Source: Agelas oroides (lineage: Eukaryota; Porifera; Demospongiae; Agelasida; Agelasidae). From it: a stretch of 64,000 nucleotides of DNA. The stretch is taken from positions 15,102,405 to 15,166,404 of the forward strand of contig OX422184.1 in the NCBI GenBank assembly GCA_949130485.1. Direction: 5' to 3'. The notes under the pieces were generated by a model that worked only from the letters and a program-made list of their open reading frames with translations, had not been told where the DNA came from and did not search any database. A program made the position numbers and the translations under genes. Positions 24,101-56,300 of the stretch are shown piece by piece. Every line of letters starts with the position of its first letter. Positions within the stretch are counted from its first letter, which is position 1.

Positions 24101-27100
24101 CACCACATTGAAATACTCAGCAGCCCTGAAATTTTTTCTAGCACTACTGTACAGTGTTAGATATCTGGTGATTAACATTACGTTGTTATTATCCTAGTTA
24201 ACCTCAGATTCATTCCTTTTTTACCCCCCACTTATCTACATATCGTCATTACTCTAATACTGTGTGCATGCTAAAAGAATAGGTAATGGTAGTGTACATT
24301 TTTTTAATTGAATTCATCATACTGATTCCGAATTTCTTACATATGTGAAATTAGATCGGCTTGAACAAAAATTTTATTATGTGGAAGAATGCTGTTGATA
24401 TAGCTAAATGAATAGCTGTTTTTTTTTTGTAAAATTGTGTACAGGTGTCATTGAGCTCGTCACCCATGAGACTCGTGCTTGTGCAGCCCTAAAGAAAAAT
24501 CTACAGTATTCTAAAGCAATTGCATTCCGCACACATTTATCCCTTGTTTTGATATAACTCTGTCTGGCTTATGTGATTGTTAATTCCTGAAATTGAGAAG
24601 TAGGTAATTCACTGCACCGCCGTGAGCATCTACTTTGCGTGCCACTGTATTGTAGAAAAGTTAGTTTTTAGTAGCTTAGCAAACAGTTGTTGAGTATTTA
24701 TTGTTTACATCTGAGTGTGTGCACACATGGAGCTGTTCACAGGCCATCGCTCCAATTTTTGTCACTTGCAGTACAAAGTTATCTGCCATCACTGATGATG
24801 GCTCACTATCTTTCTTCTGTAAGAAGTACCATGCAGTAGAAGCTGAAGATTACCCATGTTGCATGATCATTAGCCTTGTACCCAGGCGGCGTGGGAGGAG
24901 AAAGACGGCCTGGTATCAACTGCTTGCGCATGCATGATCATTCCCAGAAAAACCTGGGAATCCGTTTACATTTGGAAATTGTTGGTAATGGTAAAATCAA
25001 TACGTATACGTCCGATATATTTCCGTATCATCGAAAGATACAGCCATTTGCCAGTTGAATTGCCTTCAACTCCATGAATGTAGAGGATAATCGCTGTGTA
25101 TACGAAGGCAAAGATGCTTTTGTGCAGCTACCAACTAGTTTCGGTAAGTCAGCACACTACGAGGTGCTGTACGTCATTTGCGTGCTTGACCATAAACAAA
25201 GTGAGTTAGGTACAGGGCGGGGTAGCTACGCCATTATCTTGTTAGTCTTGCCGTTGGGTTCACTTGTGATTGCCAAATTAACGGTGTGAGTGTGCATTAA
25301 TTGTTTTGTTGTAGCTCTTTTTCAGCTTTGTACATATACTACTTTCGAATATCTTGTCCGTATACTATTGCATGTGGACAATCTACGTAAACATTACAAT
25401 TTTACGGAAATATAGCGGAAACGACCCCGCATGCACAAGCAGTCAATACCAGGTCGTCTTTCTCCTCCCACGTGGCCTGGGTACGAGGCTACATGATCAA
25501 TAATGGTGCTTTTTCTCCAGAACTGGGAAGACTTTTACAAGTCATCGTGAATGCTGTGGATATATAGTCGAGGCTAGTTGAATGTTCAAGTGAATGCGCC
25601 CAACCTTCTTTAAACCAGTCTTATCGATTATTGAAGGCAATTAACTTGCTTGGCTTCAGAAATGCTAGTTTTACTGTACTTTGAGGTACAAAGCTAAATC
25701 TTGCATTGAATAATTATGTATAGGATATGGAAAGTGCTTTTTGTTCTGGAGTGTTACACAAGTAGCCTGTAGCCCCATGTATTTACGGAGCAACCAAACA
25801 ACTTAAAATGAAGGAATTTAGATGTTATGAGGCGAAAATAGAGGGAAGTGAAAAAGGCTGGCACCTCTATTTTCGCCTCGTAACATCTAAATTCCTTTAT
25901 TTCCAGCGTGAGGCAAGATGCTCTGAGCAACTTAAAATAAAGTGAAGATTGAACACTTTTAAGAGGTAGCCTCATTTACAGTCCCTTATCATGGAGAGCC
26001 TAGGAATGAGGCTACCTAGGTCCATTGTTAGAGTTAGTGTTAGGGTTATGGTTAGCCTAACCTTGTGTTTTATGACAGTCGAAGATGTCTTTTATTTCTG
26101 ACCCAGTTGAAAACCTGACAGCACGGGTGGATACACATAAGCCTACTGTGTCACTGAAATGGGACCCACCAGCCAATGCTGGAGTGGTAGGTGATGTCAT
26201 TAAATATCAAGTTCGTTTCTGGGATAAGAAGAATGGTTGCTACAATGAGAGCACTGTAAATGGTTCCATCACTACCACTGTCATCACAAGAGAGTCAGGA
26301 CTCAGACCATTGACCCCATCCACTTTTGAAGTGAGAGCCTGCAGTGGTGGTAATTTAAGCCAAGAGTGGAGGACTGTGTCAACTTTTGTTGGTATGTAGA
26401 AGTTAGTAGTTCATTATTTTACGTGTGTAGACTGTACTAAACACCACCCTATTTATCGATATGTATGTATTCACAGAACAATTAGCCACTTGGCATTTAA
26501 TTACGTATTACATGGACATACATCCATCTGCCTAAGGATTATGTAATACTAGTTACCAGCACTGATATCTTTTACAGCTCTCACTCCTGACCCAGTTGAA
26601 AACCTGACAGCAGCTGTAGACCCACACCAACCTTCTGTGACACTGAAATGGGACCCACCGGCCAATGCTGCAAATATAGGAGATGTCACTAACTATCAGG
26701 TTCGTTTCTGGGATAAGAAGAAAGAGCACTACAATGAGAAAACTGTGAATGGTTCTACCACTACCACTGTCATCACAAGAGAGTCAGGGCTCACACCGCT
26801 GACTACTTCCACTTTCGAAGTGAGGGCCTGCAATGGTGATGGTGTAAGCCAAAAGTGGAGGACTGTGTCAACATTTGTTGGTAAGTACATGGGCGTTCAC
26901 AAGTGTACCATTTCTACATCTTAATCAATTGGTCATACTGTAAACACAATCAACAAAGGCAGTGTTAGTGCTCATGATACGTACATTTTCTCATGTTTCA
27001 GAATTATATGATGCTTGAATGTCTACTTCATTATCCCTTTAGCTCTGGTTCCAGCTCCAGTGGAGAACTTAAAGGCTCATGTAGATTCGAACACCCCTTC

Positions 27101-30100
27101 AGTGGCCCTATTTTGGACCCCTCCACGAAATGTTGGGGCTAGAACTCCATGTTCCTGCTCAGATGTTAGCTGTTATCAAATTCGTATCAAGTCAAACAGA
27201 AGACAGCACAGTAACAGTGACGAGTGTTGTGGTTTATATTGGGAAAGGAATGGTGTCTTCAGCAAGCACTTTGGAATCATTTCTTACACAAAGAAACAGA
27301 ATTACCATGAAATCAGCGTGGGTGGCTCCACAACTAGTATAGTCTTCAACAGAGAGACTGGGCCAGCACCACATACCACTTTTACCTTTGAAGTGAGGGC
27401 ACAGTGTGGTGAGGACTTAGGACAGTGGAGAGCGGTTCAAGTTTTTGTTGGTGAGTTGAAGCAAGCCTTTTAATCCATGTATACTGAGTACTTCAATTCT
27501 TTTGCTATTCTGACCAATCAGACAGCTATATTTGAGGGATTTGACAAATCACTTTTCTTGCTGCACATGCAAAAAGCTTCTGTTTCTAGTGCAACATCTG
27601 TCGCAATGCAACAAATCAGTCAGAATCATGGAAAGCGTAACAATTGTCACATGACTACATGTCATACATAAACCAAAGCATTAAGCAGCAATGTCTACTA
27701 GCTGGGAGGTTGTTCTATAGCTGAACACCCTGGAGGAGGCTACATAGTGAGATAGAAACACAACCATCTATGCTGAGGTATAGTGAACACACATGGTATA
27801 TAGCACCTGGATTTAACATGGGGAGGATGAAAGTTGAGAAGCTTGTACTTTACACCAACTTTCCCAATCTTTCACTACTTCTTTTATGTGCTTGTTTATT
27901 CTGTTTTAATTACTACCATGTGTAACTGCTATCTTGCTAGGACATAATTTATCCTCATCCTAGTTCTTGCCATGTCAGCTTTGTTTTGCCTCGGAACAGA
28001 ATTACTGAAGCATTATAGGTTAGATGTAGTATGATTTGTTAGAAAAGATCAGTGCCTGAGTAAAGCGATCGAAATGCCAACAACGAAAGCACTTTTCGCA
28101 GCTTCAGGCACACACTGACCTTTTCCAATGATTATATTAGGGACTTATATTGTGCTTGGCAGGAGTATATTACATACTAGGTATCAATAGTTAACCGATT
28201 ATATGTGGTAGATGCCAGTTGGCGTCATGTGCACATATGTCACGAAATGTGATAGACACCAGTTGGTATCACGGATATGTCTAAGCATTATCACAGCCTG
28301 GGGCAAATAGCTACAAGCTTTGAATCCGGTCAGTGATAAGATTGGAGCCCCTACTTTTGCAAGTGGGTTGGTCCAGAAGCCCTCAAAGGGCAAAGTATAG
28401 TGAGCGATTACAGCCAGGGTGGATCTATACATGTCCAGGTTTGCCAACAATGCATTGTTAGGAGGTGGGGTTAGGGTTAGGGTTGTGATTAGAGAACAAA
28501 GAAAGAACAAAAGAAGATCAAAGACACTACTAAGCGTTTGATGGCAATCCTGGACATCTCTCGGATGTCGATCTCCTCAACCTCAATGGAGAAAGTGCCT
28601 CAATAGCCATGTTTTCTTCTCAACGTCAATAAGCAAAGGCACAGTGCTAACTACGAAAGTACAGCGTCTCTTGGGCTTCATAAATATCAAGGCAGATCTC
28701 GAGCTGTGCTTTGTTAATCAGCATTTAAAGCCCAAAGACGGTAGGCACAACACGCGAGAGGTAAGCGTCCTCCGTAAACCGGCTACAAATAACTTCAGAA
28801 AACATACCTAGATTCATTTGTCCCTTATTTCACTCTGTGGAGCTTCATTTATTTTCCCTGATGCTTTAATCGTTGGTAAATAGCAGGAATTGACATCACG
28901 TGAAGTTAATCTTTTTCCACATTTTAGGTTAATTGCATACCATTTAATCTCGCTGAACAATTTGGTACCGATAGGACTTTAGGTCACATGGAAGTAGGAA
29001 AAAGTACCTACTATCTGCTGTGTGTGCAGGGAGTGTGACCATCATACGCAAACTATCTACTGTCTTCAATCTAACCTCTATCCCAGTGTAATAAGGCACT
29101 TCAATATTAGCAATAAAGGGGTAAAAGGTCCTCAGAAAAGCTGCATGCTGCTGAAGACGAAGCACGTACTTCAACAAAAGAAAAAAGAATGTTTTATCAA
29201 GTGGGAAATGGTTTGTATTTTTGACAAGTGTTACCATGGCAATGAGCCAGTGATTGCAAAATTGATTATTTTGTCAAAGGTGTTTGAAATTGTGCACAGA
29301 TGCCAAGAAGACAGACATCAACAGAGTCTACACACCATGAAGAATCATTCTAACTCACTACATTAACAAATTTTTCTGCACATTCATGATCATACAACTC
29401 TGTAATTTCCCAGATCTGGTTCCTGGAGAAGTTCAGTACCTGACATCAATTTTGAACAGTAGCAGACCTTCTCTGACCCTGTACTGGGACAAGCCAGAAA
29501 ATTGTGTAATTGATGAAGATGTCACGGCATATGACATTCGATTTAGACCATCTCCAAGTTTTGAAGAGAAAGACTACTGTCACATGGCAGTGACAGGATC
29601 AGCTGGAAGTGTTCTTCTAACAAGAGAATCTGGCCTTAAACCACTGATGAAGTACAAGTTCGAAGTCAGGGCAAGAAATACTGGAAGTGAAGGAAATTGG
29701 AGCAGTAAATTAGAATACATTGGTATGCATACTTGTGCATGATTACCAAAGCAGTTAGACCTCAGGCCATAGTGTAATGGCATGACTATCAACACATAGT
29801 TAGCCTCTGTAGATTATACACCGCACTAGAATATATTATGGTAGCACTGCATGGTGAAAAGTTGACAACTATGTCAACATGTTGATATTTAAATGTCTAA
29901 AAGATTTTGATTTAGAACCTTGAATTACTAGTGATTTCATTGAAGTCATCAGATTTCCACTTCATGATGTTAGTTGGTGCATTGCACTTGGGTAATAAAA
30001 AATGAGTTCTGCACCAGCAGAGTGAATGTGACGGGGTAGTTAGTCGAGGTGAAAAAGCACATCATGCACATGACTACTGCTGACAAGTGCCCTTTGGTGA

Positions 30101-33100
30101 ACTCTCAAAATGTGTGATCACAGCAGAAGTGGAAATATGGGATACATTGTGTAGAAGTGACCACTTAGGAGGATTTTGAGTGGTTATACAAGTACACATT
30201 ATAGACCACTAAACATTAACTTACCACACTTGTTCCTATGTAGTCATGATAATCTTTCTGCAGCTCTCACTCCAGACCCAGTTCGCAACCTGACAGCAAC
30301 TGTAGACCCACACAAACCTTGTGTGACACTGAAATGGGACCCACCAGCCAATGCCGGATGTGCAGGAGATGTCACAAAATATCAAGTTGTTTTTTGGAAC
30401 AAGCAGAATGGTTGCTACAATGAGAAGTTAGTAGATGGCTCTACCACTACCATTGTCATCACAAGAGAGTTGGGTCTTAGACCACCAACTGAGACCACTT
30501 TTGAAGTGAGGGCCTACAGTGGTGATGATGTAAGCCAAGAGTGGAGGAGTATTACTAAATTTGTAGGTATGTATACAAATTTTTAAAGCATGTCATGCAT
30601 ACTTGAAAACTGTTTCATTCCCTTCCAAAGGTCTGTTAACCTGAAGCAAAGAAGGTTTGGTAGCTGTTATACCAACAGTCTATAAGTCATTGTTAATTTT
30701 CTAACCTTTGGTGCATGTCTACAAAGAGCATACACTCAGGCGGGTTAAGGCAGGCTCTGGTTTTGGACAAGCATTGTTCAGACTACTTACCACAGAAAGT
30801 TTATGATGTATTTTGCAGAGAAGAAGTGCACTGGTAGTTATTGTATTGTGGCTAATGATGTAAACAAACAAATTGGTTTCCATGGAAATGTCCCACCCTC
30901 TCATAAACAATGTTCACTAATTAAGACTGTTATAACCGTATTTAGCGAACGCAGTGCTGACTTTTCCTTTTAACTGGGTAAACTTGGTACCATTCGAATG
31001 CTCTTTACATGCAGAATTCAGAACTAGCTGGAAATTGGGTATAGTAAGTTAACGTCACGAGTAAATCGAAAAAATGCCTGGAATGCAGTAAAGTGGCAGC
31101 TAATTATAAATTCTACTAACTCTCCTGCTCTTCAGAAGTGGTGCATGGGTACCGTCACTCCACCCGGATTATGAACGATGCCTGATAGCTGCTCCTATTT
31201 ACCAGTACTACAAACTGAGTTCTCTCAAATTCGGCACTGTGTTGGGGGGGGTGGGCTTATTGCTGAGGTCGGCTACTATATGAACGGCCTCGAGCCATTT
31301 TCCCATTTCTTGCTTCCAGAAACACAAAACTCTGTCCATTTGTAGCCTTGCTGCGAGTTAGACATGTCTAGTTAACAACCAGCTACAGTACAGACTAACA
31401 GCCTCAACCTGGCTAGCAAAGCTAAGAAGCCTTCACACGGCAGCCATTTCATCTCTGTAAATTGTAATACAACTTTCGCAAATTATAGCAATACCTTTGC
31501 ATACTTACATATCACGAACAATACATTTGGAGCCCGCCTTAACCTACCTGAGCAGTGATGACACCACACGTATTGCACAGTAGCGTACAAGGTATTGAAA
31601 CTGTTTTTTGATGTGTCACGATGCTTCACATTGTGATGATATAACTGGCTCAGTTTTATAGGGCAGTTTTGAGTTACTATAAACCCAATGGGCTATTAGG
31701 CTGTTTTCTCCACAAACTCGATGTAAGATGTTTTAATTAATGTCTGCAATAAGTTTGTTTTATATACCGTATTTGACAAGAACCTTGCCTACTTCTATCA
31801 TGAATTCAATGTTATATAGGCATATCCTTCAGGGTGAGGTTATGCAGTTTGTGTGGTGATGGATAGTAATAATTTAATCAACAATGCATGAGCTGTTTGA
31901 GCAATCACGTGAATATACACAATTTGATGAGTAACATAGGTGGTGTATGTGTTACAGTATTGATGAAGAGGTAGTTTTAGCAGTCACTTTTTCATGTGGT
32001 TTCAAGGTCGAAACTCTTTCTTCGTCATTCTATGCCACCCTAGGCTAGTAGCTCTTACTCTCAACCTTTTCCAACCAGTCTTGGCAAGGCCGGTGCAAGT
32101 GGTTTGGCTCGTACAGCTTGGGCTGTACCAATTTTTATTTTGTTGAGAGCTAAGCTTGTACCCACACTTCAGTCGACACTAGGAAGGAGAGAGCCAGCTC
32201 ATTACCTATAGACCCGCCTAGGCATTTGCTAGGGTAGTAGGAGTGTCACCATATTTGTGTGGTGATCATTTCAAGAGTTGTGGTAACACATGTATCTGAT
32301 GTGTTGAATCACTCTCCCGTAGAGAATTGCAAATATCTTCCTTCCAGAAAGGATTTATGCAGTCAAACTTCAGGTTTACATTGTAGAGTAGTGAAGCCTT
32401 AAAATGCGCATAGTGGAATTTAATTATCTATGACGTAATCACAAAATGGCTGCTGCAACGAGCCCCACCCTCAAAAATTTAAATCGCTAACTGCAAGCTC
32501 ATACTACGTGCGCAAGCGCTACAAATTGCAGGAAGTGTTTATAGTGTGAGGCCAAACAAAACTACAGAGCGTTTTCTAATAAAGCAAGTATTTAATTTCT
32601 GCACTGCAATTGCTGCCGTATTTCCATATGGTTCACTAAAAGTGTAACAACTAGCACAGACATTGCTAAAAAAAAAATCACTTGGCATGGATATAGTATA
32701 TTGGACAGTAAATAAAATTACAGAACCAAAATAGTAAACATTACACTATACATGATAAAGTCGAATGTGAAATCCATGGCAAATTACTGCCCCTCGGCAA
32801 CACGTCTGTGCGACTTGAACTGTTTGGAAAAGTTTTTTACCAACTGTTCAAGCTCAATACCAGCCTGGTGTCCCAGAAGGTACCCATACATGTACTGTCG
32901 AGCTTGACGAAAATAGTTTCGAATATTTTCAACTGAAATTGTATCGAATGATTCTGGAATGTTCCGTCTCAAGCCAGTGATGCTATAATTGCAATAAGCT
33001 CGTGTGTATCGCTTTGCCTGTGACCAGCAACGTTCAATTGCATTTAGTTCACAGTGATACTTGGGGATAAACAGGAAAGCATGTCCACGGCTGTTGATGA

Positions 33101-36100
33101 AGCGTTCAAGTACCGTCTTCTCATTCTTAAAGTCAGGATGAGTCGCAATTTCTTTCCGCATATCCTCCAGTTTCATTGTCCTGTTGTAGCAACCTCTTTC
33201 AGTGAACACCTCTATCAATCCTTTTGGAATCCATTGATAATGCCCACCAACTAGGATACGTTTTTTCATAGACTGTGGCTTTCCGTTGTACACTGTGTCG
33301 TGCATGAGCGGTTGCTTGCCTCCTGGCTTGGCATTCATCTTATTTGCATTAAGCGCATCATCACTGTAAGCACCGTGGCAGCTGCTCTGATCAAAACCCC
33401 AAAATAGATGATAGCCTTGCTCTTTAGGATATTTGGCTTCAGCTATCTTCACTGCATATTCCATTTGTTTCATAAATTTTTCTGATGTCCAATATCCTTC
33501 TCTTGATTCTCCATACTCTAGTAGCTTTCTTGCGGACATCCTAATATTAGGATTGTTCCTCTTTGCTGCCTGATATTCCTCCTCTGTTAGACACAAAAAA
33601 CCATCCCTTTCGGTGATGAAGTCTGACACCATGATGCCAGATCCTCGACTCTTTGGTCTAATCAATTGACTGTCAGGTGTCCCCCACTGCAAACCTTCGT
33701 CATCATTTGCATTGAAAGTCGTTTCATCATGAAAAATGAATATATTTTTTTGTCTTCGCTCTGCTGAAGGAGACTCGATATCATCCGGAAACGCATTCTT
33801 CGCCTCATCATTAGGTGCTCCATCTTTGGTCAGGAAGCCACCAGCAACAAGTTGACGCAGGAATTTCTTCCTGTGTTTGACAACATCCTCTCGCTCATGA
33901 CCATCTATGTACACACCCTTCTTCTTGTTGAGCACTTCAAATCCAAGCTCATGTAGCCATTTCCGTCCCGTCTCCACTCCGATGTGTCTTGGGAAGCCTG
34001 GTTCCAAGATGCTGTTTGGCAGAAGATGATCGTTCACCCAGCGAGTAAAACTAACTGCATTCGTGTTAGGTCTTCCTTTCACAACAGCATTTTGTCTTAT
34101 GTAAGTACGAGCTGCCACACAGAGCTCCTCATCACTCCAGAGGATACCTTGCCTCCGATAATGGCCTTGTTCACTGTCTGGGAAAGCTCCAGCATTGTCA
34201 TAGAAAAGCTTCCTCCACCTCCCAATAGTGCGTTTACCTTTCCCAGTCACTTCTGCAATTGTTGGTGCAGCATCAACTTTCTTCACTCCATGTACATTAA
34301 CAAGGACATGGTGAAGGGTTAGTGACAATGACATCACGTCATCCCGTGGCAGGACACTCACCCACTCTTCAATATGTTGCAAAGCAAGTGCTTGCTGCTC
34401 TTCTGTAGTAACCGACTCGTTAGGATTGAAATCGGCATCATCACTCTCATCAGAGCTGATCTCACTCTCTGGGCCTTCCTCTCTCCTCAAACTCACAGAG
34501 GTTTCATCTCTCATTCCACTCGCAGAGCTTTCACCTCTCCTTTCAACCCCAGAACCATGGCCTTCCTCTCTCCTCTCACTGACAGAGCTTTCATCTCTCC
34601 TCTCAGAGCTCTCACCTAGCTTTGCAACCTTCCTGGCTCTTGCAGCTTCCAACTGCAGCTTTCTCTTAGGCTTAGGAGGCATTCAGTGCTTGTATCTTGC
34701 AAAACAGTCGCAAATCGAAAGAAAATCGCCAAAAATCGCACCATCGTGAATGGGCATTAATTAGAAAACGCACGCGCTTACCTGCAATCTGATTGGTCAG
34801 TCCCTAGCAACGGAATAACAGTATATGAAAGTTTTTATTCTGGTGGATTAGACCATGCTGAGCATTTTTGTCAATGGTTGTCAAGGTTTATTGTTTATAC
34901 TTTCTGAGATATTTGCAAAAATATAGAATTTACTTTTTGGCCATTTATGCCTGGGTGCACCGTAATGATTTTATCATACGAACCTTCGATTTCATTGCAC
35001 GTTCAGACGCAGCGCACGTGACTTGTAGTACCTGATACGGATTCTCGCGTGACTTGTAGTACCTGATACGGATTCTCACGTGACTTGCAGTACTGATACG
35101 GATTCTCGCATGACTTGCAGTAAAAAATACGGCTTTTTATAAACTGCGCGCAGCTGCAAGGCTTCCCCATTGACTCCCATACATTAGCGTGAGTTAGACG
35201 TATGATAATATCTTGTAGCATTGAAGCCATACATTACAAAGGCACCGCCAATGGTTTATACAACAGACCCCAGTCGATGAAATTAGGGAAGTTAGAACAT
35301 GGGATTTGCTCAGATAAATTAGGGAGGGCGGTATAATATCTTGTAGCATTGAAGCCATACATTACAAAGGCACCGCCAATGGTTTATACAACAGACCCCG
35401 GTCGATGAAATTAAGGAAGTTAGAACATGGGATTTATACAAGTTAGAACACCACCTTTACAATGTGGTTAATACACAAAATAAAAATATAAGGCCCACGG
35501 ACAGCAACACAATACAGTAAATGTGCAAAGTTTTTTTCATACAATAGCAGAGTCCACAAGACTATCACTGCTCAATAATGTGTTCACAGAAATGTTCATG
35601 CCCTAGAATATTTCGGCAAATGTTCCAAACTGGCATTGCCTGTGTGTTTTAGCTGTGAGAACCTAAACTCCACGCCCATTACAGTAAAAAGCGCTGCGCA
35701 TCAGAGCACAAGGGGTGCCAACACCAAGAACACCACCTTCCCAGAGCACATTTCTTTATTCATGGAGATCGTAGCACTTGTTTACCCCTGCACTGACGCC
35801 TACACCCCTCCGTTTTCGAAAATGCGTGTCCATCGCCGGTGTATAGGCCCTGGATCCTTGGTGTTCATGAAGTTAGGTGATCACGCATATATCGCAGTAT
35901 GCCTTGCAACATTTGGTAGTTTGTTTTTGCTTGAAACAGCTCGCTGTCACTCTTTCTGGCTTCTGTCATGAACAAGGAAAAGCTCGACACAGTTCACTGC
36001 CTGAGTCTGTCCACTCGCTCATTCCAAGGTATGATTTATCTAGACACTTGCATGCTTGGGTCAATACGATGCAAAATGCAAGCCGAAACGGGTTCATCTC

Positions 36101-37894: not shown

Positions 37895-37925
<31 letters not shown>

Positions 37926-40900
37926 GTCTGTCTACCTATCTATCTATCTATCTATCTATCTGTCTGTCTATCTATCTATCTATCTATCTGTCTGTCTACC
38001 TATCTATCTATCTATCTATCTATCTATCTGTCTGTCTGTCAATCTACCTATTTGTCCATCTGCCAGTCTGTGTATCTACTTTATCTGTCTCTTCATATTA
38101 TAGCATATAATATGGGGATTTATCTTCTATAGCCTTGGTTCCAGGACAAGTACAAAACATGAGATCAGCTCGAAGTACTGACAGATCTTCTGTGATATTA
38201 ACTTGGGATGAACCAAATAATGCCAAATTTTCTGAAGATGTGACGTCATATGACATTCGTTACAGACCTAATAACTGGTTGAAAACACCCTATAATACAA
38301 CTACTGTAAATGCTCCAACAACCAGTATTCTTCTTAAATCTGGTTTCAATTGTATGGAGAGGTATCACTTTGGAGTGAGGGCACGGAATGCTGATTTTGA
38401 AGGAGAATGGAGCACGATTTCTGAGTATACAGGTACCTTTTACATTTTCAGTTGTAAAATTGAACATGTGGCAGTCCCGGGTAGAAATTGAACATTATTC
38501 CGTTGCGTATTTCGAGCGCAATACCGCATTCGTAGCACCGTACCGCAGAACTTCTGTTAAGAAGGGGGTTCATACGTGCTGCGTAGATGCACAAACAGTT
38601 GACACGTCTACGCAGCATGTATGAGCCCCACCCTTAGTGGAAGTTCTGTGGTAAAGCGCTACGAACGCGGTAATGCGCTCTAGGTATGCAATGGAATAAT
38701 GTTCAATTTCTACCCGAGACTGCCACATATATGAATATTAATAAGCTACAGATTAGTGTGTTTCAGAGTAGCATGGGTCTATGTGCATTAAAGCCATTTT
38801 TGTAAGAGACCGTGTTTTGCTTTATTGGAGAAGTGAAAATTGAGAAGCATCTGATTCATTGACAGAAGTTAAGCAATTCTTCAAATTCCTGAAAAGGAAT
38901 TATGTGATTTTGACATGTTTCAGCACTTACAAGTGTATGCTATTTTTCGTCACATGAATAGCATCATATAAATGGCAGCGGGGCTGCCATGTACAGCAGC
39001 CTACTGGCAAACTGCACCATCAATAGTATAATATGCTTTCCTCTCTGCTGTTGTTTTGTGTTTGCTCAATCAATACTGATGATAAGGCTAAGCGGAGTTG
39101 ATAAATACTTTTGATTCAACCACATGCAGTTGAGAGGGAGGTATTTGTTATTAGTCTTGAGTCCCACTAAAGTTTTGGCTACTGCATGTGGAGTTTTGCA
39201 TGTAATCTGAACCGCAAACATACTTCACCTTTGCATAGTGTTAGTTGCCCTTGGCATATAGTGCTAGCGTTACCTAAATGTGTGCATCCGCACCATGCTA
39301 CGTAGAGGGCCATCGACTCTCTGATACATGTACTTTGCTTGTTACATTCAATTCTCATGTCTGGTTCCTTCTAAAACTGCCAAGGCTAAAGCCTAGCTGA
39401 AAGCCTATTAGCTATGTAAACTGCAGTGCTTATATAGGAGCATCTTGTGGTGTGGTTTAAACTTGAAACTAGTTTGAACATTATACAAACACACAGTTGC
39501 TTAAGTAGCATGCATGTATCTTATAGAACTATGATATGTCAAATAATAACTTATGGCACGTTGGAACTAGTGTATACATGGCCTAGCTTCATTGATTGGC
39601 CCCTCACCTGCTTTTTATCTTGTACAGTAGGTAAAGTAGGGAGGGCTATTGTCACATAAGTCTGAATGTGAGAGCTGAAATTATAGTGAATGTGGGTGAA
39701 TCTGATTGCAGTTATGCAATCTATGATCAAATGCTGCATAGACATTTTACTAGAGCATTTTGACTATCACACACATTGCGTACAAGTCTTCAAACTAACT
39801 TAGAAGCCTAGCACTGACTGGTACTGGAACAATATGCATTGACAGTTCTTTTGACTTGATGTGCATGGATCAATGTAGTACGTGATTTTCTAGCCTCACA
39901 ACTCGTATATATGCATGACTATCTGAACTTCCAATATCATCAGGAAAAAATGCACTACTGGCAGAAGTCAAAACAGATGCTAACTTTATGGGTTTCACCA
40001 TCACAGGAAGTCTCGATGCATACGCCAACTGTTATGACATATATAATTATGGATAACAGAAATGTTATGAAACTCAATTTTCTTCTTTATCATCACTGAT
40101 ATTGCATGAGTCAAGCCCTTTTCTTATTTACACACTACCAATAATGAAATGCTGAATAGGGGCCTGGAAATATGGGTTGGTGGGAATTAGGTTTGTACAT
40201 TGTTTATATTGCATGCAAGCTGTTGACTTTACAAGATGTATCCTCTCTCACAATCTAGTTCAAAACCTGACAGCAGTTGTGGACCCACACAACCCTTTTC
40301 TGACACTGAAATGGGATCCACCTCACAATCCTGGAGATGTGACAGCATATGATTTTCGTTACAAGCCATCTAATGGCTGGTGGTTTACACACAGTACTAT
40401 GGCTACTGTGAATGCTCCAGTAGCCTGCATTCATTTTACAGGGAAATCTGGCTACAATTTACAGACAACATATGATTTTGAGGTTAGATCACGGGATGGT
40501 GATTGTAAAGGAGAATGGAGCAGATTGTTGCAATATACAGGTAATTGTTGCACCAATTGTTATCTTTCTATTTAGGGGTGCGACAAGGGTGACATATCAT
40601 GTCTAAAGCCCTTGGCTCATAGTAAATTTGAGATTGATACAACTCTACTACTACATCTGCACTAACAATGTGCATGTTGAGTTCTCAGTTACCTTCTGCA
40701 TATGCTTAAAGAAGCTCTCTGTTAACAACTTTGAAGCCATTCCAATTAAATTAGTTGTTAACGAATTTCCTGACTGGTTTTCTTGCCTTGCGCATGTGTA
40801 GGAACACACGCAATGCAGGTCCACTGGCCCTAAAGGTTGTTTCGTGTCTCCATCTACTGTACTGGTCCCGGTGTTGGCCATTCGAATGGCCAGTAACTGC

Positions 40901-41351
40901 TGGCTTCCAGCTTTGAACGTAGCTGTAGCGCATGGATTGCTGCATATCGTGTGGAAGGTGTGCGGTTGTTTTGTCCTTGTGAAAAAACAGTAGCACATGG
41001 ATTTGCGCATGCTTGCTTCACAGTTGCAAACGTAGCCAAGCCAGTACTGCAAGGCACCCAGGCATGCACAATTTAATGCCGGAAGCACAAAACACTGAAA
41101 GAGAAGGTTATCTGTTACCAATTAGAACTCGGAAAATAACTTGCCGATGTTTCGACTGAATGCTCCAGTCATCATCAGGGCGAAAGATAAGATAATAGAT
41201 AAAATTTTATTTTGTACAGGAAATGCCTCTTCAGCAATTGAGCTGGTCTTCCAGAGGGTCATGTTTAACAACATAAGTGACACAAAATAGTGAGAGAGAG
41301 CAAGAGCTAGCACAGTACATTATTTAAGAACAGGGTACTAGCAAAAAGAAA

Positions 41352-41398
<47 letters not shown>

Positions 41399-44300
41399 TG
41401 CAAGTTCTTAATTGCAATTTTAAATGCTGTGTTCGAAGATAGTTCTTTTATGTTCTTAGGGAGTCCATTCCACTTGATGGCTCCTTGAAATTCAAAAGAC
41501 TTTCTGTAATATTCTGTATTTGGCTTCTCCAAATGTATATTATTATAGCCTCTGGTATGGGGGTAGCCCAAGCTAGAGTTGCTTGGAAACTTTGAGCACA
41601 TATAGCGGGCGGCATTGTTATGCAGGCATCTGTGGACTGTACTAAGTCGAAATAACTCTCTGCGATCAGTCAGAGTAGTCCACTGCAGTTTTGCCCTCAA
41701 CTCTGCACTCTGTGTCCGGCCCTCAACTCTGCACTCGGTGTCCGAGGGGGGGATGATGTGATTACTCTCATTCCATAGTTCTGGATCCTCTCAATCCCCT
41801 GTGCCAGTGTCGCTCTACAATAAGGCACAGCAGTAATCTATGTGTGGGAGCACCAAGGCATTACAGAGCCTGGTATGTATTGGAAGGAACTGGCTGATTC
41901 TCCGCATTTGTGACAACCCAATCAAGCATTTCTTCCGAACTTTCTGTATGTGCTTCTTCCACTTCAAATCCTCATCCACAACTACTCCAAAGTATTTCAC
42001 TTTGTGTTTTGACCTTATACATTCTCCACGATGTAGTACAGTGAACTCCTCAACCTCCTTTTGCCTACGTTTGCAATCCATCACCATCAGTTGTGTTTTG
42101 GCTGCATTCATCCTAAATTTGTTGTGTTCAATCCACAGTGCTATCGCTTCAAGCTCCCTTTCCAGTACTTCCTTTACTTCTTGAGGATTCCTATGCGAGA
42201 AGTAAATCATTGAGTCATCTGCATACAGGTTCACTGTACACTTGTTCAGTACATCTGGCAGGTCATTCACAAATATCATGAAGAGTAGTGGGCCTAGTAT
42301 AGACCCCTGTGGAACCCCCATCCATGAGGATTTCATGCCATTTATGGTCACTTGCTGTCTTCTTCCAGATAAATATTCTCTAAACCACTCCTTATCTCCT
42401 CCTTTTACTCCATAGGCTTCCAACTTTTCTAAGAGAATTTGATGGTCACAGAGTCAAAGGCCTTGCTGAGGTCTATCATGATGGTACGAGTGATTTCATC
42501 TTTGTCCAGTGCTCTCCTCCAGTTATCTACTGATCTGATCAATACATCCTGGGTACTGTGCTGGGGCCGGAACCTGACCGTGCTGCATGTAACAATGAGT
42601 TTGTCTCCATGTAACTATACAGCTGTATGTGTACCATTGCCTCAAAGATCTTTGCGACAATTGGTAGCACTGAGACAGGTCTATAACTTTCCACTAACTC
42701 CTCCCCTTTCTTTGGGACTTTGTCACACATGCAGTTTTCCATTCACTGGGTATCCTTGTCTCGAGACTGTAATTGAACAGATTTGTCAAACTCTCAGCTA
42801 TTGCTGAGGCAGTCATCTTCAGAAGTTTGGCAGATATATTGTCTGTACCTGTGGCTTTCTTGATGCTTAGTTTGCCAAGATAACTCAACACCGTGTCCTT
42901 GTCAATCCTTTTGAAGTGAAACACAGTCGGTGCTTTGGGAAGACAGGTAATTGAATGACCTTTACCACTGTTGTTATCTTTATTGCTTTCCTTAGCACAG
43001 TTTGAAAAGTAGGTATTAAATTCCTCTGCTATCACTTGACTGCTTGTTGTTTCGCAGCCTTCGTTCCTAATTACAGAGATTTTCTTCCTGTAAATACGGC
43101 CCAAGGCACTGTTAACTGCACTTCACATTTTACTAGCCTGGCCTGCTGCTTCCCTGCAAACATCTGCAAAGTACTCCACTTTTGAGAGTTTGAGTTGTTT
43201 CTTCACTTTATTTCGTAGGCTCTTGTATTTTTCCGCATCATATTGCCTTCGAGTTCTAAGGAATTTATTATGAAGATAATTCCGACATTTCATCAATCTT
43301 CTGACGTCTTCAGTGATCCATGGATGTGAGTTCTGTCTCACTCACTTCATTAGTGGTGCATGTTTGTTGTTGACCTCTGACATAAACATTGCCTTCCAAT
43401 ACCCCAATTTATCATCTACAAAAGTATCCATTACCTGCCACGGTGCATCATGCAAGTCACAAAGCAAGCTTTCCTTGTTACACCTCTTAAAGTCTCTCAC
43501 ATTTCTGATGTTGGCATGTCGAACTGCTTTCATCTCATCATTGTATACCGCATAGATCATCATATGATCACTGTCTGTAAGGGGGATACATCCCACCTTC
43601 TTGTCCTTGTCTGGCTGTGGGTGCGACACTAGCAGCAGATCAATCAGGGATTGTGAGTGGTTGGTAACACGAGTTGGGAGCTGTTTTAGGTTACACTCTT
43701 CTATAGATGTCAACAAATCCATTGTACATCTTTTTGACTGGGACAGCATGTAGCTAGCAGTTTAGGTCTCCCATAATCACCATCTCTTTACCTTCTTGGA
43801 CTGTGGCTTCCATCATTTTACACACAGCTTCCATAACCAGACATCCAGCATTTGGGGGACGATATATCGTGCACAAGAGAACATTTGACTTCTTGACTTT
43901 AATCTCAACCCGGACTGCTTCAACGTCTTCCGATTCAAGATCACTCCGTCTCCAACATCTCAACACATCTGGCACATGCACCATTACACCACCACCTCTA
44001 CCTTTCCTGTCTCTCCTGAAGATCATGTGGTTACTCATTTGCACTTCATCATCTCATCCAGCCATGTTTCGCTCACTCCAAAGACTAGCTGCTGTCTAGC
44101 CTGCTGGACAAAGCTCCTGCACTATTCAATCTTTGGCAAGATACTTTGCACATTAAGATGACAAAATGAAGAAGTGTGAACAACCATTGCTATTTATAGC
44201 CATGCACTACTGAGGATACACATTATCAGAGGTCAAAGGTCAGTGAGGATTGCTCCTCCCCCCCACCTAGCCTCCTCATCACAGCGGTCCAGCAACCAGG

Positions 44301-47300
44301 AACTTTCAGTCCTCCATCTTGGTTGAAACGCTCCTCCGAGGGTGTCATCTGGGTGTGCAGGACCTCCTTCATCAACAGCTCCTGTCCTTTGCCATAGTCC
44401 AGCACTGTGGTCTCCTCCCAGTAGATCAGGTGATGGTTCTCCCACGCATGCTCCGCTACAGCTGACTTCTCCATCATCCATGGGGAAGTCGCAACAGATC
44501 CATGTTGGCTATGTTCACCGGTGCAAAATGACCATGCCCATTCCCGGTGTGTGGATAGGCGAAGTTTCCGGAGTAATTCACTAAGAAAATGTGGCATAGT
44601 ATACAGAAATAAATTCATATTTATGCCGACCTACCGACGTACTGCATTCCATTGTTCAGAAAATCCGTTGAACAACTAATTTAATTGGAATGGCCTAAGC
44701 AAAAGTTTTATTAAAATGTACACAAACTTCTTCATTTTCTTGAGCTGTGAAAGTGGCGTATGTACATACATATGTAGCAGTACTGGCTAGAAATTGAGCA
44801 TTATTCCGTTGCGTATTTTGAGTGCATTCCTGCGTTCAAAGCACAGTAGTGCAGAACTTCTATTAAGGAAGAAGTTCATACACGCTGTGTAAATGTGTCG
44901 AGCATTCATGAATCTGTGCAGGACATATGAGCCCCGCCCTTAATGGAAGTTAAGTGCTACAGCACTTCAAACACAGTAATGCAATTGAAATACACACCAT
45001 TTCTACCCAAGAATGTCACACACACATATATGTTTGCATATACACTCTTAAAAACCATCTTTGTTACTAGGAAGTTACATGCATGTAGATTCCAAGATTC
45101 TGATAAATTAATTTAAGTAGAGACTAAAATCATAAGAGTATCCTAATACTGTATTCAGTCAAACATTACAACACACAAATACATAGCATTTTTAATAATT
45201 TACCATGCAAATGAGCACTGCTGATTTAATTGATCCTTGGCCAGCCTTCATGGTCTCATCCCTGAACAACATAGGCATTGACTTGACTTCTCTCTAAAGC
45301 TCTCACTCCAGACCCAGTTGAAAACCTGACAGCAACTGTAAACCCACTCGAGCCTTCCGTGACATTGAAATGGGACCCACCTGCCAATGCTAGGTATGAA
45401 GGATATGTCACTAACTATCAAATTCGTTTCATGGACAAACAAAAGGGTTGCTACAATGAGAGGACTGTGGATGGTTCTACCACTACCATTGTCATCACAA
45501 GAGAGTTGGGTCTTAGACCACTGACTGAGACCACTTTCGAAGTGAGGGCCTGCAGTGGTGATGATATAAGCCAGGAATGGAGCACTGTTTCAACGTTTGT
45601 TGGTATGTAAACATCTAAATTATGTACACAATGCAGAGATTTACACACTCCAACTACTTTGTTCATAAGGTAAACAAGGACCAGGATATTTTTGATGCTT
45701 AATGAAGATCTTTCATCACACTTACCTAGGTGGTCATGATTATGTAGCAGCAGCTAGTGAGATCTTTTCTTAGCTCTCACTCTAAGTGATCATGGATATC
45801 TTTCTACAGCTCTCACTCCTGACCCAGTTCAAAACTTGACAGCAACTGTAGATGCTCATAAGCCTTTTGTGACACTGAAATGGGACCCACCTAGCAATGC
45901 TAGGTATGCAGGAGATGTCACTAATTATCAGATTCGTGTCTGGGACAAAGAGAAGGGTTGCTACAATGAGAAGATGACAAACGGTTCTACCACTACCACC
46001 ATCATCACAAGAGAGACAGGGCTCAGACCACTGACTGAGACCACTTTTGAAGTGAGAGCCTGCAGTGGTGATGATGTAAGCCAAGAGTGGAAGACTGTGT
46101 CAACATTTGTTGGTATGTAGATGTTTGCAAGTGTAGCTACATCTGTGAACAGTAAACTTGGGTTGGAATTGTTAGTGCTTATGACATAAATGAGTTTTCC
46201 CATGTATGTTGTCATGAGTATGTAATGCTTGAATGGAGGTGGCTTATTTTTAACAGTTACTCCTTCTTGAACATCACCTCCTCTAGCTTTGGTTCCAGAC
46301 CAAATTAAGAACTTGAAGGTTCAGGTAGACCCAAACATCCCATCTGTCACCCTGAATTGGGTCCCTCCACAAAATCTTAGTGCTGGAACTCCATCTTTCT
46401 GCTCAATGTTTAGCAGGTACCATATTCGGTTCAAGCCAAAAGGAAGACAACACTATAATGAGATTGATATGGATTGGACAACAACTAGTATAGTCCTCAA
46501 CAGAGAGACTGGGCTAACACCACATACCACTTTTACCTTTGAAGTGAGGGCACAGTGTGGTGAGGACTTAGGACAGTGGAGAGCAGTTCAAGTTTTTGTT
46601 GGTGAGTTGAAGCAAGCCTTTTAATTAAATAATTTCAATCTGGCTTCCGCTAGATTAGATTCATAAAAACTTCTGCAGCGACTTCACAAGTGTTGTTTTG
46701 ATAAGAACACTTCTGGGTGCACTCGTTCTGCCTGTGACTTTGCTGTTTTGTTTGCTAAGAATGCTTTGTGGTGTCTACTACTACGGGCTCCTCCGCTAAA
46801 TTGGATTCACTTACCTTTCTATTAAAATAATGACTGTATACAGTTCAACTATTTTATACTCATACGCCCGCTTACCATTTCTGACATTTCCCTTGTAGTT
46901 CCAGTCAGGTAGTAGCTCAGACTCACGAACCGGCTGCTTTTGTGGCATCCCCAGGACCCCTTTGCTCCAGTGCCAAGGTTAGATCACTCTAGGCTATACC
47001 GCACACTGGAAAAGCGACACTGTTTGAAACACTGTCACACGTGTGAGAAATTGAGTTGAGTGGTCATCATTTGAGGAAACGCTCTGTTCAATCTTCGCGT
47101 ATAAAGAGTTAATATCGTTTAGGTTTTCAGGCATTTAAGCGCTACAGATATTCCCCTCATATCCCTTTTTATAGGCCTATTACTGAAGTAACTGTTCATT
47201 CTGCTGTTTGTTTCAGTTGCCTCATTTTGTTTTTCTGATTCTAAATAACTTTGCTTTTAGTTGCTGTATGCCTCCCTTATATGCCTGTTGTACATAGTCA

Positions 47301-50300
47301 CTATATTGTAATTGCTTACTGTACTATTTGGGCTTTGTTTAATCCAACTTAATAATGTAGGTCAAGATTTTGGGCACACCAAATAGCAGCTAACTGTACA
47401 GTGGACAACAGAGTATTTATGTCCTAATATAGTACATAAGTCATAATTATGGGTAATGCTTTTATGCCCAGGCTACAGATGCCTATGGCTACAAATATTT
47501 ATATTTGCTGTGTGGACACTTTTCTTGGATTACTGTAGCAACTAAACATCAAATAACTAAATTGTCTCTTTTAGTTCTGAGTCCTTTGTTGCATGTGTTT
47601 TTCCAGGTCTGGTTCCAGGGCGAGTTCAGAACCTGATATCAATTTTGGACAGTAGCAGACCTTCCCTGACCCTGCACTGGGACAAGCCAGTAAATTGTGT
47701 AATCGATGAAGATGTGACAGCATATGACATTCGATTTACACCATCTGGAAACTTTGATGAAGAAGGCCATTGTAAGATGACAGTGAAAGCACCAGCAAGG
47801 AGCATTCTTTTAACGAGAGAATCGGGACTTAAACCACTGATGAAATACAAATTTGAAGTCAGAGCATGGAATGCTAGCAATGAAGGTTACTGGAACAGCG
47901 AACTGGAATACATTGGTATGCATGTGCATGTTTGCGAAGGAACTTAGTAAGTGTAAGCCTCCGACCACTAATAGAACTTAGGTCATTGCCCAGACCATTT
48001 TGAATCTTGCATCAGAATACACCAATGCACAAACAATTGCACCGCACAGGTATCACGTCATTTGTCAGCACACCATTTTCTGGTATTGCAAAATGTTTAG
48101 TACTGCATGGTAGTGCCATTGAACAGCATAGGTTGATATATGATTTCTTCATACAGCTCTCGCTCCTGAACCAGTTCAGAACCTGACAGCAGCTGTAAAC
48201 CCACACAAACCTTCTGTGACACTGAACTGGGCCCCACCAGCTAATGCTGAAAATGCAGGAGATGTCACTAACTATCAGGTTCGTTTCTGGGATAAGAAGA
48301 AGGGTTGCTACAATGAGAGGACTGTGAAAGGTTCTATCACTGCTACTATCATCACAAGAAAGACAGGGCTCAGACCGCTGACTGAGACCACTTTTGAAGT
48401 GAGAGCCTGCAGTGGTGATGATGTTAGCAAAGAGTGGAGGAGTACATCAGTATTTGTAGGTATGTTTCTTGAAGTATGTGATATAGTTTGTTAAAAAGAC
48501 TGTTTAGAGTGTGTATGTCCAGGAGGTTTGCACATAATCACCATAGCTGTCTACAGTCCATTTTGTACATAAGCCTTGCTTCACCAAATTCAGAACCATT
48601 ATTGCTAGCTACATTGCTCTGTGGTTCATATCTCAGTTGCAGTTGTGTAGTGCTTATTTGAGGCTTTTACAAGTTCTGTGACTTTAAATAGTACATTTGA
48701 CTGGGCAAGTGATATGCTGAAGTGCGGAATCCGAAGTATGGAAACAGAAGGCGGTCATGAGTCAGTAAGGCACTAGACACCGATAGGCAGCTTTTCTTCT
48801 CACTTCCATACTTTCCTACTTTTCATACTTGCGTTTCCGTACTTTGGCTTTCCTACTTTAGCGTTTTCCACTTGCCCCATCTGACTCTAACTCACTGCAA
48901 ATAATCACCATACATACTTACAGGTACTTTTTGTTCATATTTTTTGCATAGAAATCAGTCATGTTTAGAGATATTATATATATGTGATGTAGAACAATTC
49001 TTTTCATCTATTATTTTGTAGCCCTTGTTCCAAGACAAGTGCAGAACCTGAGATCAGCTCGAAACGCTGACAGATCCTCTATGATCCTGAAATGGGACAA
49101 ACCAAATAATATCAAACTTGCTAGAGAAGTGACAGCTTATGAAATTCGTTACAAACACTGTAATAATAGCAGGTGGAGTATGTGTACTGTAAAAGCTCCA
49201 AAAACCAGCCTTCTTCTAAAAAGAAACTCCGGATTCATTTCTCTAATGGCATATGACTTTGAAGTCAGAGCACGGAATGCTGAATGTGAAGGGGAATGGA
49301 GAAGTATGACAGAATTTGCAGGTACATGTTGCACATTTTATATTAGAATGCAATAGTATCTTCGGGAAGGGATTGTCCCAATAAAGCTAGCTCACAATGC
49401 AATTTAAGTGCAAGCTCTTTGTTTGAGCACACTCTTGCCTGGGAAATCTCACAACTTTGCACATGTAAACACATGCACTCACGCATGCACACATACATAC
49501 ACGCACACACACACGCACCCATGCATGCATGCACACACATGTGGTGTACATATAGTCATTGAAGTGCCAGCTTTTTATTGCTTACTATGTGTGTCATTCT
49601 CACTAAGTGATATGAGAGCTAAAAGAGTCTTTGGACATGACTCAACGTGAATTTACTGTTGTTACATGCATACATGTGATCAAGTGCTTCAATGAATTAT
49701 ATTTGTATAATTTGACAAATGGGATACCTGTAAACCAAAGAAAGAAGAAGAAGGCAACAAAACAAGCCCAACAAAGATATCTGAATTTGTTCTGACCAGT
49801 TTCATGCACAACAGGTATAACTCAACACAGGCAGGAAGTCTTTCCCGTTATACTAGAACATCAAACACTCATCAGAATTCTGTCAGGAGCACATAATGAT
49901 TTAGAAAGTGGAAGGAAGATTTGGAGTGTGAAGTGACCACTCAATAATTAAAAATTTGTCATCGTATCTATGGTAGGCCTGTTGCTACTTTTATCGCTCA
50001 CATGTACAAACACACAATCGTCCAGAAACAAAGTATGTAGAGCTATATTACCATGCGACATATAGTGATGAATTTTTGCAGGGGGTTAATTCACCAGTCA
50101 TTCAAGTGGAAAATATTTGGGCCTTTTTTCTGTCTCACAATATATTACACGGAAGCAGAAAAGTGGTGAAAAATGGGGAAGGCCTGGGAAAACTTATCAC
50201 GTGAATGACATCATGTGGACATGAGTTGGATGTAGTGGGTAAGGTGTCCACATTCAAGTAACAAACTAAACTTTATCTATATAGCACTCCACGTCCACCT

Positions 50301-53300: not shown

Positions 53301-56300
53301 GTTGCTAGAGAAGGCTGCAGTGTTTTGATGCAACTTCACTGGTGAGTGAGTCTCATTAGAAAGTGTAAAGTGACTTTGGGTACCAGTCCACTAGTCCTTT
53401 CCAGTGATTGTAGATGACCTGGAAGGAAAGTAAAGACTACACAAGTTCAGTGTACATAGTTGCATGACTTGCGTAAACTCTGTACTCAGCATGTTACCAC
53501 AGTGTTTGCCAACTGCACTGAGTGGCTTCACCATCCAGATTTTATAGTCTGGCTTCTGTACATGCTCAGATAAGCTTTTTGAAAATTGTACACCATTTTC
53601 TTATCCCTCCTATGCTAATTCAAAGAATTTGTAAAAACATTCTGTGGGAAACTAGTAAAGTTTATTCAAGTATCAGCATGAATTCTTTTCCAGCACTGTA
53701 TTCATAAAATTTGCACAGTAAGGATAGTCACACAACTGTAGTAACCAAATATTTCGCTAAAATAACAACTTTGTTTTCTCTCAGCTTTGATTTAGTCATG
53801 CAACTGTGTATACTCAACTTGTGTGGCCTTTACTTTCTTCTCTCAGCTTTGATTTAGTCATGCAACTGTGTATACTCAACTTGTGTGGCCTTCTCTCAGC
53901 TTTGATTTAGTCATGTAACTGTGTACACTGAACTTGTGTGGCTTTTCATTTCTTTCCCTTTCCACTTGAGGTGTAATTAGTTCTACCTCGGCATGTTACT
54001 CTTAGGTGGTACAGTTGGTGTACAGGACACTAGATGAGAATGTCAGCAGCACAAGCCAAACCATTACGTGAAATTAGTACATGATGTATTCATTTTTTGC
54101 TGTAAGTGGATATTAAGGCTGCCTTAACATATTTGAGACAGTGTGATACTCATTTTTACTTATCACTAACTATGAAATGCATGCTGGCTAGAGGCCAACA
54201 ATACATGTATGGTCTATGGCATACATAAGCTATGGACAGTACACATGAAGTAATGTATCTTTTCACTTTTGACCCAGTTCAAAACCTGACAGCAGCCGTG
54301 GACACACACAAGCCTTTTCTGACTCTGAAGTGGGATCCACCAGCCAATGCTGAAGATGTGACAGCATATAAAATCCGTTATAAGCCATCTAACCTCCAAT
54401 GGATTTTGCCCTATAATACTGTGAATGCTCCGACAACAAGGCTCATCCTTGCAAGAAAATCTGGCCTTAACTTACCTGTTACATACCACTTTGAAGTCAG
54501 AGCACGAGATGCCGATTGTGAAGGACAATGGAGCAGATTTTCAATGTATAATGGTATGTGTTACTGAAGAATTTATTACAGTAAGAGTGTGCAACTCCCA
54601 TACGGTTTCGATACCCACCATCTGAACAGTTAGAAGTACGTTGGCAATCAGCAGTGAATATGTTTAAGCAGGTACTTAGCATGAACACACATGTGACAGT
54701 CCCGGATAGAAATTGAATATTATTTCATCATGTATTTCAAGCAGATCACCAACTTTGATGCACTATTGCGCTGAGCTTCTGCTAAGGGCAGGGCTCATAC
54801 ACACTTCATAGACATTACATAGTGTGTATGAGCCCTGCCCTTAGTGGAAGCTCATGCAGCACTATAACTGGTGATGTGCTCAAAATACGTGATGGATTAA
54901 TATTCCATTTTTATCGGGGACTGCCACCCATATAGAAATGCCAAGCTTGTTAAGCCATGCAACCACCTTCTCACGAGGTTGTCGTAACCTAGCAACAAGA
55001 TTGTAAAAGGAGGTTGTAACAACCATGTCACTGTGGCTAAATACCTGACACATGCTGTTGGATACCTCACATACGTATGATACCAAGCACATGCTATTAG
55101 ATACCTGGTGTGGTCATGTGGCAGGGTTCTGATGGGTTTGGGTACTTTATTGCTCAAACCAATACGACTGAGATGATTGCACTGCTGAATAGCCTCATTC
55201 CCAGGCCTTCCCCAGCTTCAGTTTTTGATTGCTTGCAGTATGCAAAAATGGAGGGAGAAGACCCTGTAAATCTGCCCACGTGATCCTGGCACAGATGACG
55301 TCACAAGTTCTTGACATATATAGCTACAGACAAGCTAGAGAGACAAGACAAGTTCCAGCTGAGAGACAAGTCCTGCCTCTGGAACATAACTGGGTCTGAA
55401 GCAGAACCGCTAAAGGATAGTTCCACTGCAAGCTTTGCAAATCCAAACGCAACTTCTTTTTCGCTATGTTAGCTAAATTTTGTCACTGTGGATATTTCAC
55501 ACATGTCGTTCGACAACACTTTGGAGCTATTCCTTCTAGCTCGGATATGTTTTGTACGCTTGATGTTGTTCTCTGTGGGCGCTTGTCTCATCTTCGTAGC
55601 TTGTATAGAATGCAAGATCGGTCTTCTCCATAGCATGACTATACATATAAGCATGACAGCATGTGATGCCTGTGCCATGGATCACATAAGATTCACCAGG
55701 CCTTCTCCCTCCGTTTTTGCATACTGCAAGCGATCAAAAACTGGATCCGGGGAAGGCCTGGGAATGAGGCTACACTTGAATGGGCTTAACAAAGCAAGGC
55801 ATGTTGGGGTGTGCCTGAGAGAGCAGTGCCGAGCAGCTTGAAGTGCTGATAATCTGTACAAAAGATGTCAGTCCACCAGTCCACTCCAGGTATGATCAAT
55901 ATCCAGACACATTTTGTGGTGTATAACTAACAATGCCATCTGCATTCATTAAAAACCTGCTGTGAGATGAAAGTGTTACATGTACAAGGTAGTGTTATAT
56001 AACAAAGATACACTCATTCATACTCATGCCACCATGTAAACAGATTTTTGTGTGCCTGTACTAACAATGCAGTAGTTTTCCAAGCTTTCAGACACTTTTA
56101 CAAACAGTCAGATTGTGCTTGCACACATTGCTGCAGTTTGATACAGCTCTGCCCTCACTGCATTCTCCATCCAAATACAAAGAACACCTGCTTGTCCACC
56201 TTTTCAGAAACTGGCAGACAACTGTGATGCAGTTTGGATTCCTCCTTGTCATTTTTTACATTTGGTTGCACTCGCTGACAATACTACAAATCCCCTGTTC

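Follow-up and report, generated by a model that had tools for sequence, protein, structure and literature searches.

Block duplication and later exon-scale exchange as the probable history of an FN3 exon array in the sponge Agelas oroides

We analysed a long array of FN3-like exons in the sponge Agelas oroides, in a 64,000-bp stretch of contig OX422184.1 (the window; C2:15102405-15166404 of the 259-Mb genome, C2 denoting this contig). The exons, predicted to belong to a single gene, are lettered A-R inside the window, and two runs of seven, C-I and J-P, repeat the same order of exon subtypes. A tandem duplication of several exons is supported by this order, by the sister exons F and M, and by the similarity of the intron between D and E to that between K and L. 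The history that we favour, and hold to be fairly probable, is a block duplication with D-E-F and K-L-M as its core, later blurred by conversion at the scale of single exons and by local duplication. Judging by the subtype order, the copied run probably spanned all seven exons (C-I to J-P), or ~700 residues.

The exon array and its repeated order

The window contains 18 FN3-like exons, as a first-pass annotation had reported, all on the plus strand and each equivalent to about one FN3 domain; five more (S-W) lie downstream, at 64781-88599 in window coordinates, which are used wherever no contig is named. All 18 window exons have predicted AG/GT edges (the splice sites being predictions from the sequence), symmetric phase 1-1 and a length that is a multiple of three. 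Pfam fn3 (PF00041) matched 17 of them at E ≤ 0.001, exon E being the sole one without a match, and A, D, F, H, I and L, when scored singly, were all (6/6) above the 25-bit cut-off. Exon E is 31 residues longer than L, in frame. A cryptic intron was rejected as the source of this insert, as the lengths defined by its donor/acceptor pairs (counted by hand, not exhaustively) are not divisible by three, and the extra residues were kept as a putative in-frame insert.

Subtypes were assigned from a tree of 55 exons that includes those of related arrays on the minus strand of C2 and on C10 (59 FN3 matches less four with too little profile span, three on C10 and one in the minus-strand gene). Its 55 rows, 50 of them different, were stripped of columns filled in fewer than 40% of rows, which removed most of the exon E insert; the C10 exon at 7934512 and the exons of C21 stayed outside. 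In this tree subtype I comprises A, B, H, O, T and W; subtype II C, D, G, J, K and N; subtype III E and L; subtype I' F and M; and subtype IIb I, P, Q, R, S, U and V. The name IIb, by which the first-pass annotation had made these exons a variety of II, misleads, because they cluster with I and I' and not with II.

The order II-II-III-I'-II-I-IIb described by that annotation is found in C (26107-26391), D (26578-26880), E (27043-27450), F (29414-29722), G (30264-30566), H (38133-38432) and I (40259-40540), and again in J (45300-45602), K (45810-46112), L (46287-46601), M (47607-47915), N (48157-48459), O (49022-49321) and P (54278-54553), so that the start of C at 26107 and the end of P at 54553 are as it had placed them. 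The summed lengths are ~730 residues for C-I and ~703 for J-P. When the exons A-W were shuffled, 27 of 20,000 orders gave seven collinear exons of three or more subtypes, whatever the offset, as did 8 of 20,000 when only A-R were used; with blocks of like exons held together, the counts were 8/20,000 (A-W) and 4/20,000 (A-R). The test was framed once the repeat had already been seen. The repeat of the order is beyond chance by a wide margin, even though the test is post hoc.

Exon trees, shared tracts and introns

A single clean duplication of seven exons, as proposed in the first-pass annotation, predicts the sister pairs C/J, D/K, E/L, F/M, G/N, H/O and I/P. In a DNA tree of the 18 window exons, E/L and F/M were paired (100/100), G stood with J (91/93) and no other predicted pair was recovered; the corresponding protein tree also paired I with P (87/85). 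The 55-exon DNA tree again contained F/M (100/95) and E/L (100/96), both to the exclusion of exons of related loci, which for F/M include the three I' exons of the minus-strand neighbour gene. In the same tree I fell into a weak group with S and V (81/13), P stood with Q, R and U (97/92), and N joined m47, an exon of the neighbour (87/89; exons of that gene carry the prefix m). I/P was recovered in the 55-exon protein tree (98/76), in which H was placed with T/W (98/53); the DNA tree put H with A/B (82/81). C/J, D/K, G/N and H/O were recovered in none of the four trees. The DNA tree thus recovers two of the seven collinear pairs, and one of these, E/L, depends on a shared tract described below.

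As far as the alignments go, F/M is the only firm and evenly similar sister pair: its identity is 89/100, 92/119 and 66/84 along the exon, it showed no shared tract in the tract test, and it has the common 15-residue stretch that had been annotated. Other likenesses between the runs fared less well. The LLLK loop ascribed to both H and O is present in O, whereas H has ILLK with a two-residue gap. The shortened start of I and P does exist but is not specific to them, as C has it too, while J, the supposed partner of C, does not.

Topology tests gave a graded picture. None of the five pairs missing from the tree was rejected when forced singly (p 0.14-0.36). Forced jointly, all seven pairs gave p 0.0077 in the approximately unbiased (AU) test and 0.074 in the Shimodaira-Hasegawa (SH) test, which is the more conservative of the two; the five pairs C-G gave AU 0.020 and SH 0.13, and the four pairs D-G AU 0.031 and SH 0.26. 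The combination of E/L, F/M, H/O and I/P, with type II left free, was allowed (AU 0.36). Pair identities were not used as pairing evidence among the type-II exons, because these are all 78-85% alike. Among the six matchings of C, D and G to J, K and N, the collinear one is the lowest in identity; of 500 alignments simulated on the seven-pair tree, 13 placed it last and 261 first.

A clean seven-exon event with no later exchange is therefore disfavoured by the joint AU value, by the last place of the collinear type-II matching and by the E/L tract, and we find it scarcely credible, although the repeated order, the homogeneous synonymous divergence (below), the tolerance of the missing pairs taken singly and the SH value would all suit it. 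It could be rescued only if later exchange overwrote the type-II exons, for which the separate evidence is moderate. Of the annotated growth by about 700 residues in one step, the amount thus agrees with the exon lengths, and the single step of seven exons conflicts with the AU test when conversion is left out. A register shift (B/H together with the five pairs C-G) was also tried and rejected (AU p 0.013); this says little about B/H, since the five pairs alone are rejected too and B/H alone gave p 0.39.

E and L have one mismatch in their last 84 exon bases and none in the first 24 bases of the following intron, which makes a tract of ~108 bp (27367-27474 at E, 46518-46625 at L); the intron bases directly past it are unlike. 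Both the common end and the exact 24 intron bases had been noticed in the first-pass annotation. Identity is 82/84 in the last 84 alignment columns as compared with 156/213 before them, and 27 consecutive polymorphic sites are identical, a run that 0/2000 column permutations reached, globally. In a tree built without the tract end, E and L no longer pair, so their pairing is owed to the tract. The common end is better explained by later conversion across the splice site than by the block duplication.

Type-II exons share shorter tracts of 40-46 bp within the gene (K/N and G/J, global p 0.037 each; D/N, 0.056). With the neighbour's exons added, tracts were found between N and m47 (59 bp, p 0.011) and between K and m101 (67 bp, p 0.043). 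Tracts among IIb exons join Q/U, R/U and I/U (p 0.024-0.039), and subtype I gave no shared tract in the test. The case for patchy conversion among the type-II exons is moderate, not strong; such conversion would explain why they fail to pair.

The evidence from the introns is uneven along the block. As annotated, sizes run parallel at 186/207 bp (C-D/J-K) and 162/174 bp (D-E/K-L). D-E (26881-27042) and K-L (46113-46286) are homologous for the greater part of their extent (score 56, reached in 0/200 dinucleotide shuffles; z 9.4, with 75 intron pairs tried in the z comparisons), a similarity that blastn at E 0.01 missed. It extends away from the exon edges, and in the trees neighbouring exons of a block do not group together throughout, so that neither outcome by which the first-pass annotation would have been refuted is seen in full. 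E-F/L-M gave a weak signal: its score of 51 was reached by 1/60 shuffles and was tied by a shuffle in a second run. When all introns were compared by blastn, the collinear matches were the 24-base start of E-F/L-M within the block and I-J/P-Q at its edge; the remaining matches were between other pairs, many of them due to a mobile element. Proportions of synonymous differences (pS) for the seven pairs are 0.28-0.42 and homogeneous (p 0.25), which would permit one event; this homogeneity test has little power, as the non-collinear B/H (0.42) and P/Q (0.41) are similar.

Introns J-K (45603-45809) and K-L are alike as well (1/200 shuffles, z 5.5), as after a one-exon duplication. This fits a smaller duplicated unit, about II-III-I' or II-III-I'-II, with separate local duplications on each side as the source of the I-IIb pair and of the second type-II exon, and with the likeness of the seven-exon runs partly convergent, a history that we consider possible but somewhat unlikely. 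It would also agree with the neighbour gene, which is built of III-I'-II triplets, with the identities of C-D (83.3%) and J-K (83.7%), which exceed that of C/J (79.1%), and with a tree of (C,D), (J,K), E/L and F/M, which was allowed (p 0.50); H/O is unrecovered and I/P appears in protein trees only, and four is the usual FN3 repeat unit according to PMC1553488. What speaks against the smaller unit is the rarity of the seven-long run in shuffles, even with runs of like exons kept, and intron C-D, which is unlike D-E (192/200 shuffles reach its score).

Several results weigh against a block duplication of the kind we favour. C-D/J-K proved to be alike in size only (score reached in 83/200 shuffles); F-G/M-N (31/200) and G-H/N-O (3/20) have no similarity beyond chance, H-I/O-P is without a blastn match at E 0.01, and the I-J/P-Q match is 24 bases only, inside the mobile element. 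The joint rejection of the seven pairs belongs here too unless conversion is invoked, and H/O and I/P could equally be older copies (joint AU p 0.19). The within-gene type-II tracts are borderline and weaken to p 0.07-0.20 with the neighbour's exons included. Finally, likenesses cross gene boundaries: a 25-bp tract is common to M and m53 (global p 0.001), intron M-N resembles an I'-II intron of the neighbour (z 3.2), and K-L also resembles a II-III intron of C10 (z 6.3).

These last points bear on the idea that both runs are old copies common to the minus-strand neighbour, with the within-gene likeness entirely due to conversion. The neighbour carries III-I'-II modules several times, the E/L likeness is borne by a tract, and the tracts N/m47, K/m101 and M/m53 span two genes. 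We nevertheless regard this as highly improbable, as F and M are sisters with fairly even similarity and no shared tract, and intron D-E fits K-L better than any II-III intron of the neighbour or C10 that was tried (best z 3.5), though K-L itself has the C10 match given above. The one tree tried that splits F/M, joining F to m147 and M to m53, was rejected (AU 7e-5, SH 0.06); a tree that joins E to m26 and L to m168 was not (0.15).

Block duplication followed by overwriting is further favoured because relatives of the array show the same processes, namely an exact 4,055-bp duplication on C10 and the pair m97/m58. According to this model, the gene would have grown by in-frame tandem duplication of one-exon FN3 units, probably through intron-to-intron unequal crossing over or a comparable process; phase-1 introns around each FN3 exon would allow any number of exons to be added with the frame intact. 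Later short exchanges may then have produced the E/L tract over the splice site and the type-II patches in the gene and its minus-strand neighbour, presumably by conversion, and single exons would have been duplicated locally too (J/K). Exon similarity would consequently mix block history with overwriting. The product would be a long multi-FN3 chain with a putative role in binding or adhesion.

Related arrays and neighbouring features

Relatives were found by searching with exons L and M, and only first-look candidates were scored. Related exons lie on C2, on C10 and, weakly, on C21. The minus-strand neighbour (C2:15202621-15217144) has the order III-I'-II-III-I'-(partial II)-II-III-I'-II-II-III. 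Between its exons m97 and m58 identity is 96.6% over 386 bp (exon and short flanks), and the introns m97-m89 and m58-m53 are alike (z 21.6), the adjoining I' exons being 80.3% alike over 320 bp; we read m97/m58 as overwriting or copying of a single exon. On C10, 7897480-7901534 and 7901533-7905587 form an exact tandem repeat of 4,055 bp with five FN3 exons, which would be either a very recent block duplication or an assembly error. Among 57 pattern matches to exon L in genome contigs no relative was confirmed. A comparison for N-terminal exons common to the three loci gave 5 matches, 15-27 residues long, which we attribute to chance or to repeats.

The window's own array contains further copies. 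Outside the block, on the plus strand, lie exons A (14843-15148) and B (22872-23162), both of subtype I, and Q (57895-58194) and R (63239-63529), both IIb. Q has a second copy, U, beyond the window. Similarity extends into introns for Q/U (86.6%, 372 bp), S/V (93.6%, 706 bp) and T/W (75.7%, 888 bp), and is again uneven. The run Q-S-T (57835-58206, 64520-65225 and 68712-69541) thus faces U-V-W (79953-80324, 81884-82572 and 87885-88731); no counterpart of R was found in this run, and its introns are partly alignable.

In the minus-strand gene, an open frame adjoins the last FN3 exon past a short intron and matches Pfam PARP (1e-10). A genome search gave 36 PARP (PF00644) matches, of which those at C10 7884434, 7910594 and 7935627 and C21 927863 and 945258 lie beside FN3 exons. 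PARP frames were read at four loci, and the PARP exons adjoining arrays are at C2:15201910-15202554 minus (99506-100150 in window coordinates), C10:7910540, C10:7935561 and C21:927755. FN3 arrays joined to an ADP-ribosyltransferase-like domain are an unexpected pairing; we recognised no paper on FN3-PARP proteins among the literature matches listed. The same-genome FN3-PARP genes on C2 minus and C10 resemble the window's gene in having exons in clades II and III (C2 minus also in I'), and the C21 gene is more distant, its exons matching L and M only weakly. In contrast to them, no PARP exon was found for the window's gene in the stretch read: the search of 264 kb of C2 gave no plus-strand PARP frame, and the sole PARP match under E 0.1 is the neighbour's own exon. 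The true 3' end of the gene may lie elsewhere. Since no PARP frame was found in this stretch, we did not file the gene as an FN3-PARP gene. One might speculate that this is a fast-changing FN3-array family of an early-branching animal, several members having a C-terminal PARP domain, in which duplication and conversion, even between opposite-strand neighbours, yield new FN3 combinations suited to a recognition receptor (self/non-self or pathogen) coupled to an ADP-ribosyltransferase effector; we think this distinctly unlikely.

A palindromic mobile element of ~265 bp occurs at 8 places in the 264 kb, with copies at 4459-4709, 15159-15426, 38466-38730, 44767-44996, 54687-54933 and 58359-58602. 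Exons A, H, P and Q each have a copy that starts at most 165 bp past their 3' end, a spacing that looks non-random by eye. Shared ancestry as the source of the repeat after both A and H was ruled out, the repeat being this mobile element and its A and H copies being 77.8% alike, closer than the exons' synonymous sites (pS 0.44). Transposable-element-like frames at 32784-34682 and 41815-42453 (minus) and 17151-17885 (plus) carry DDE_3, reverse transcriptase and, in an integrase-like case, DUF3504. Intron Q-R contains a HIRAN-domain open frame (61508-61987). A frame at C2:15096652, ~5.8 kb 5' of the window, encodes a hydrophobic stretch followed by a basic tail and may be where a membrane-protein gene lying upstream ends.

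Known repeat systems and the growth of FN3 arrays

The event is of a known kind, as titin, nebulin and other FN3 repeats, and tenascin-W provide precedents. According to PMC10665226, titin has super-repeats of 7 domains in the D-zone and 11 in the C-zone, and its A-band repeats resemble the present array in being multi-domain Ig/FN3 units in which each FN3 type keeps its position. The sponge array differs from titin in that its domains are all FN3, each on an exon of its own between symmetric phase-1 introns, and in that it has two copies with visible exchange between them. Domain repeats often expand by several domains at once, nebulin mainly by seven and FN3 mostly by four, according to PMC1553488; nebulin's seven-domain super-repeats are thus similar in their multi-domain steps, whereas exon borders in the nebulin example given there fall inside domains and those of the present array at domain borders. 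In tenascin-W, the third FN3 domain has been duplicated one or more times, as described in PMC1578592, so that single-exon FN3 domains duplicate there as well; here several exons would have been copied at once, with overwriting in addition.

The interest of the array lies in its mixed record of copying and overwriting. Exon order, intron relics and exon trees each tell a different part of one history, a warning not to date block duplications by whichever exon pair looks best. Older, blurred cases stand in this genome beside an almost fresh one, the C10 repeat (4,055 bp, five exons, 100% identical), provided that this is no assembly error, and the way in which FN3 arrays grow can therefore be tested directly.

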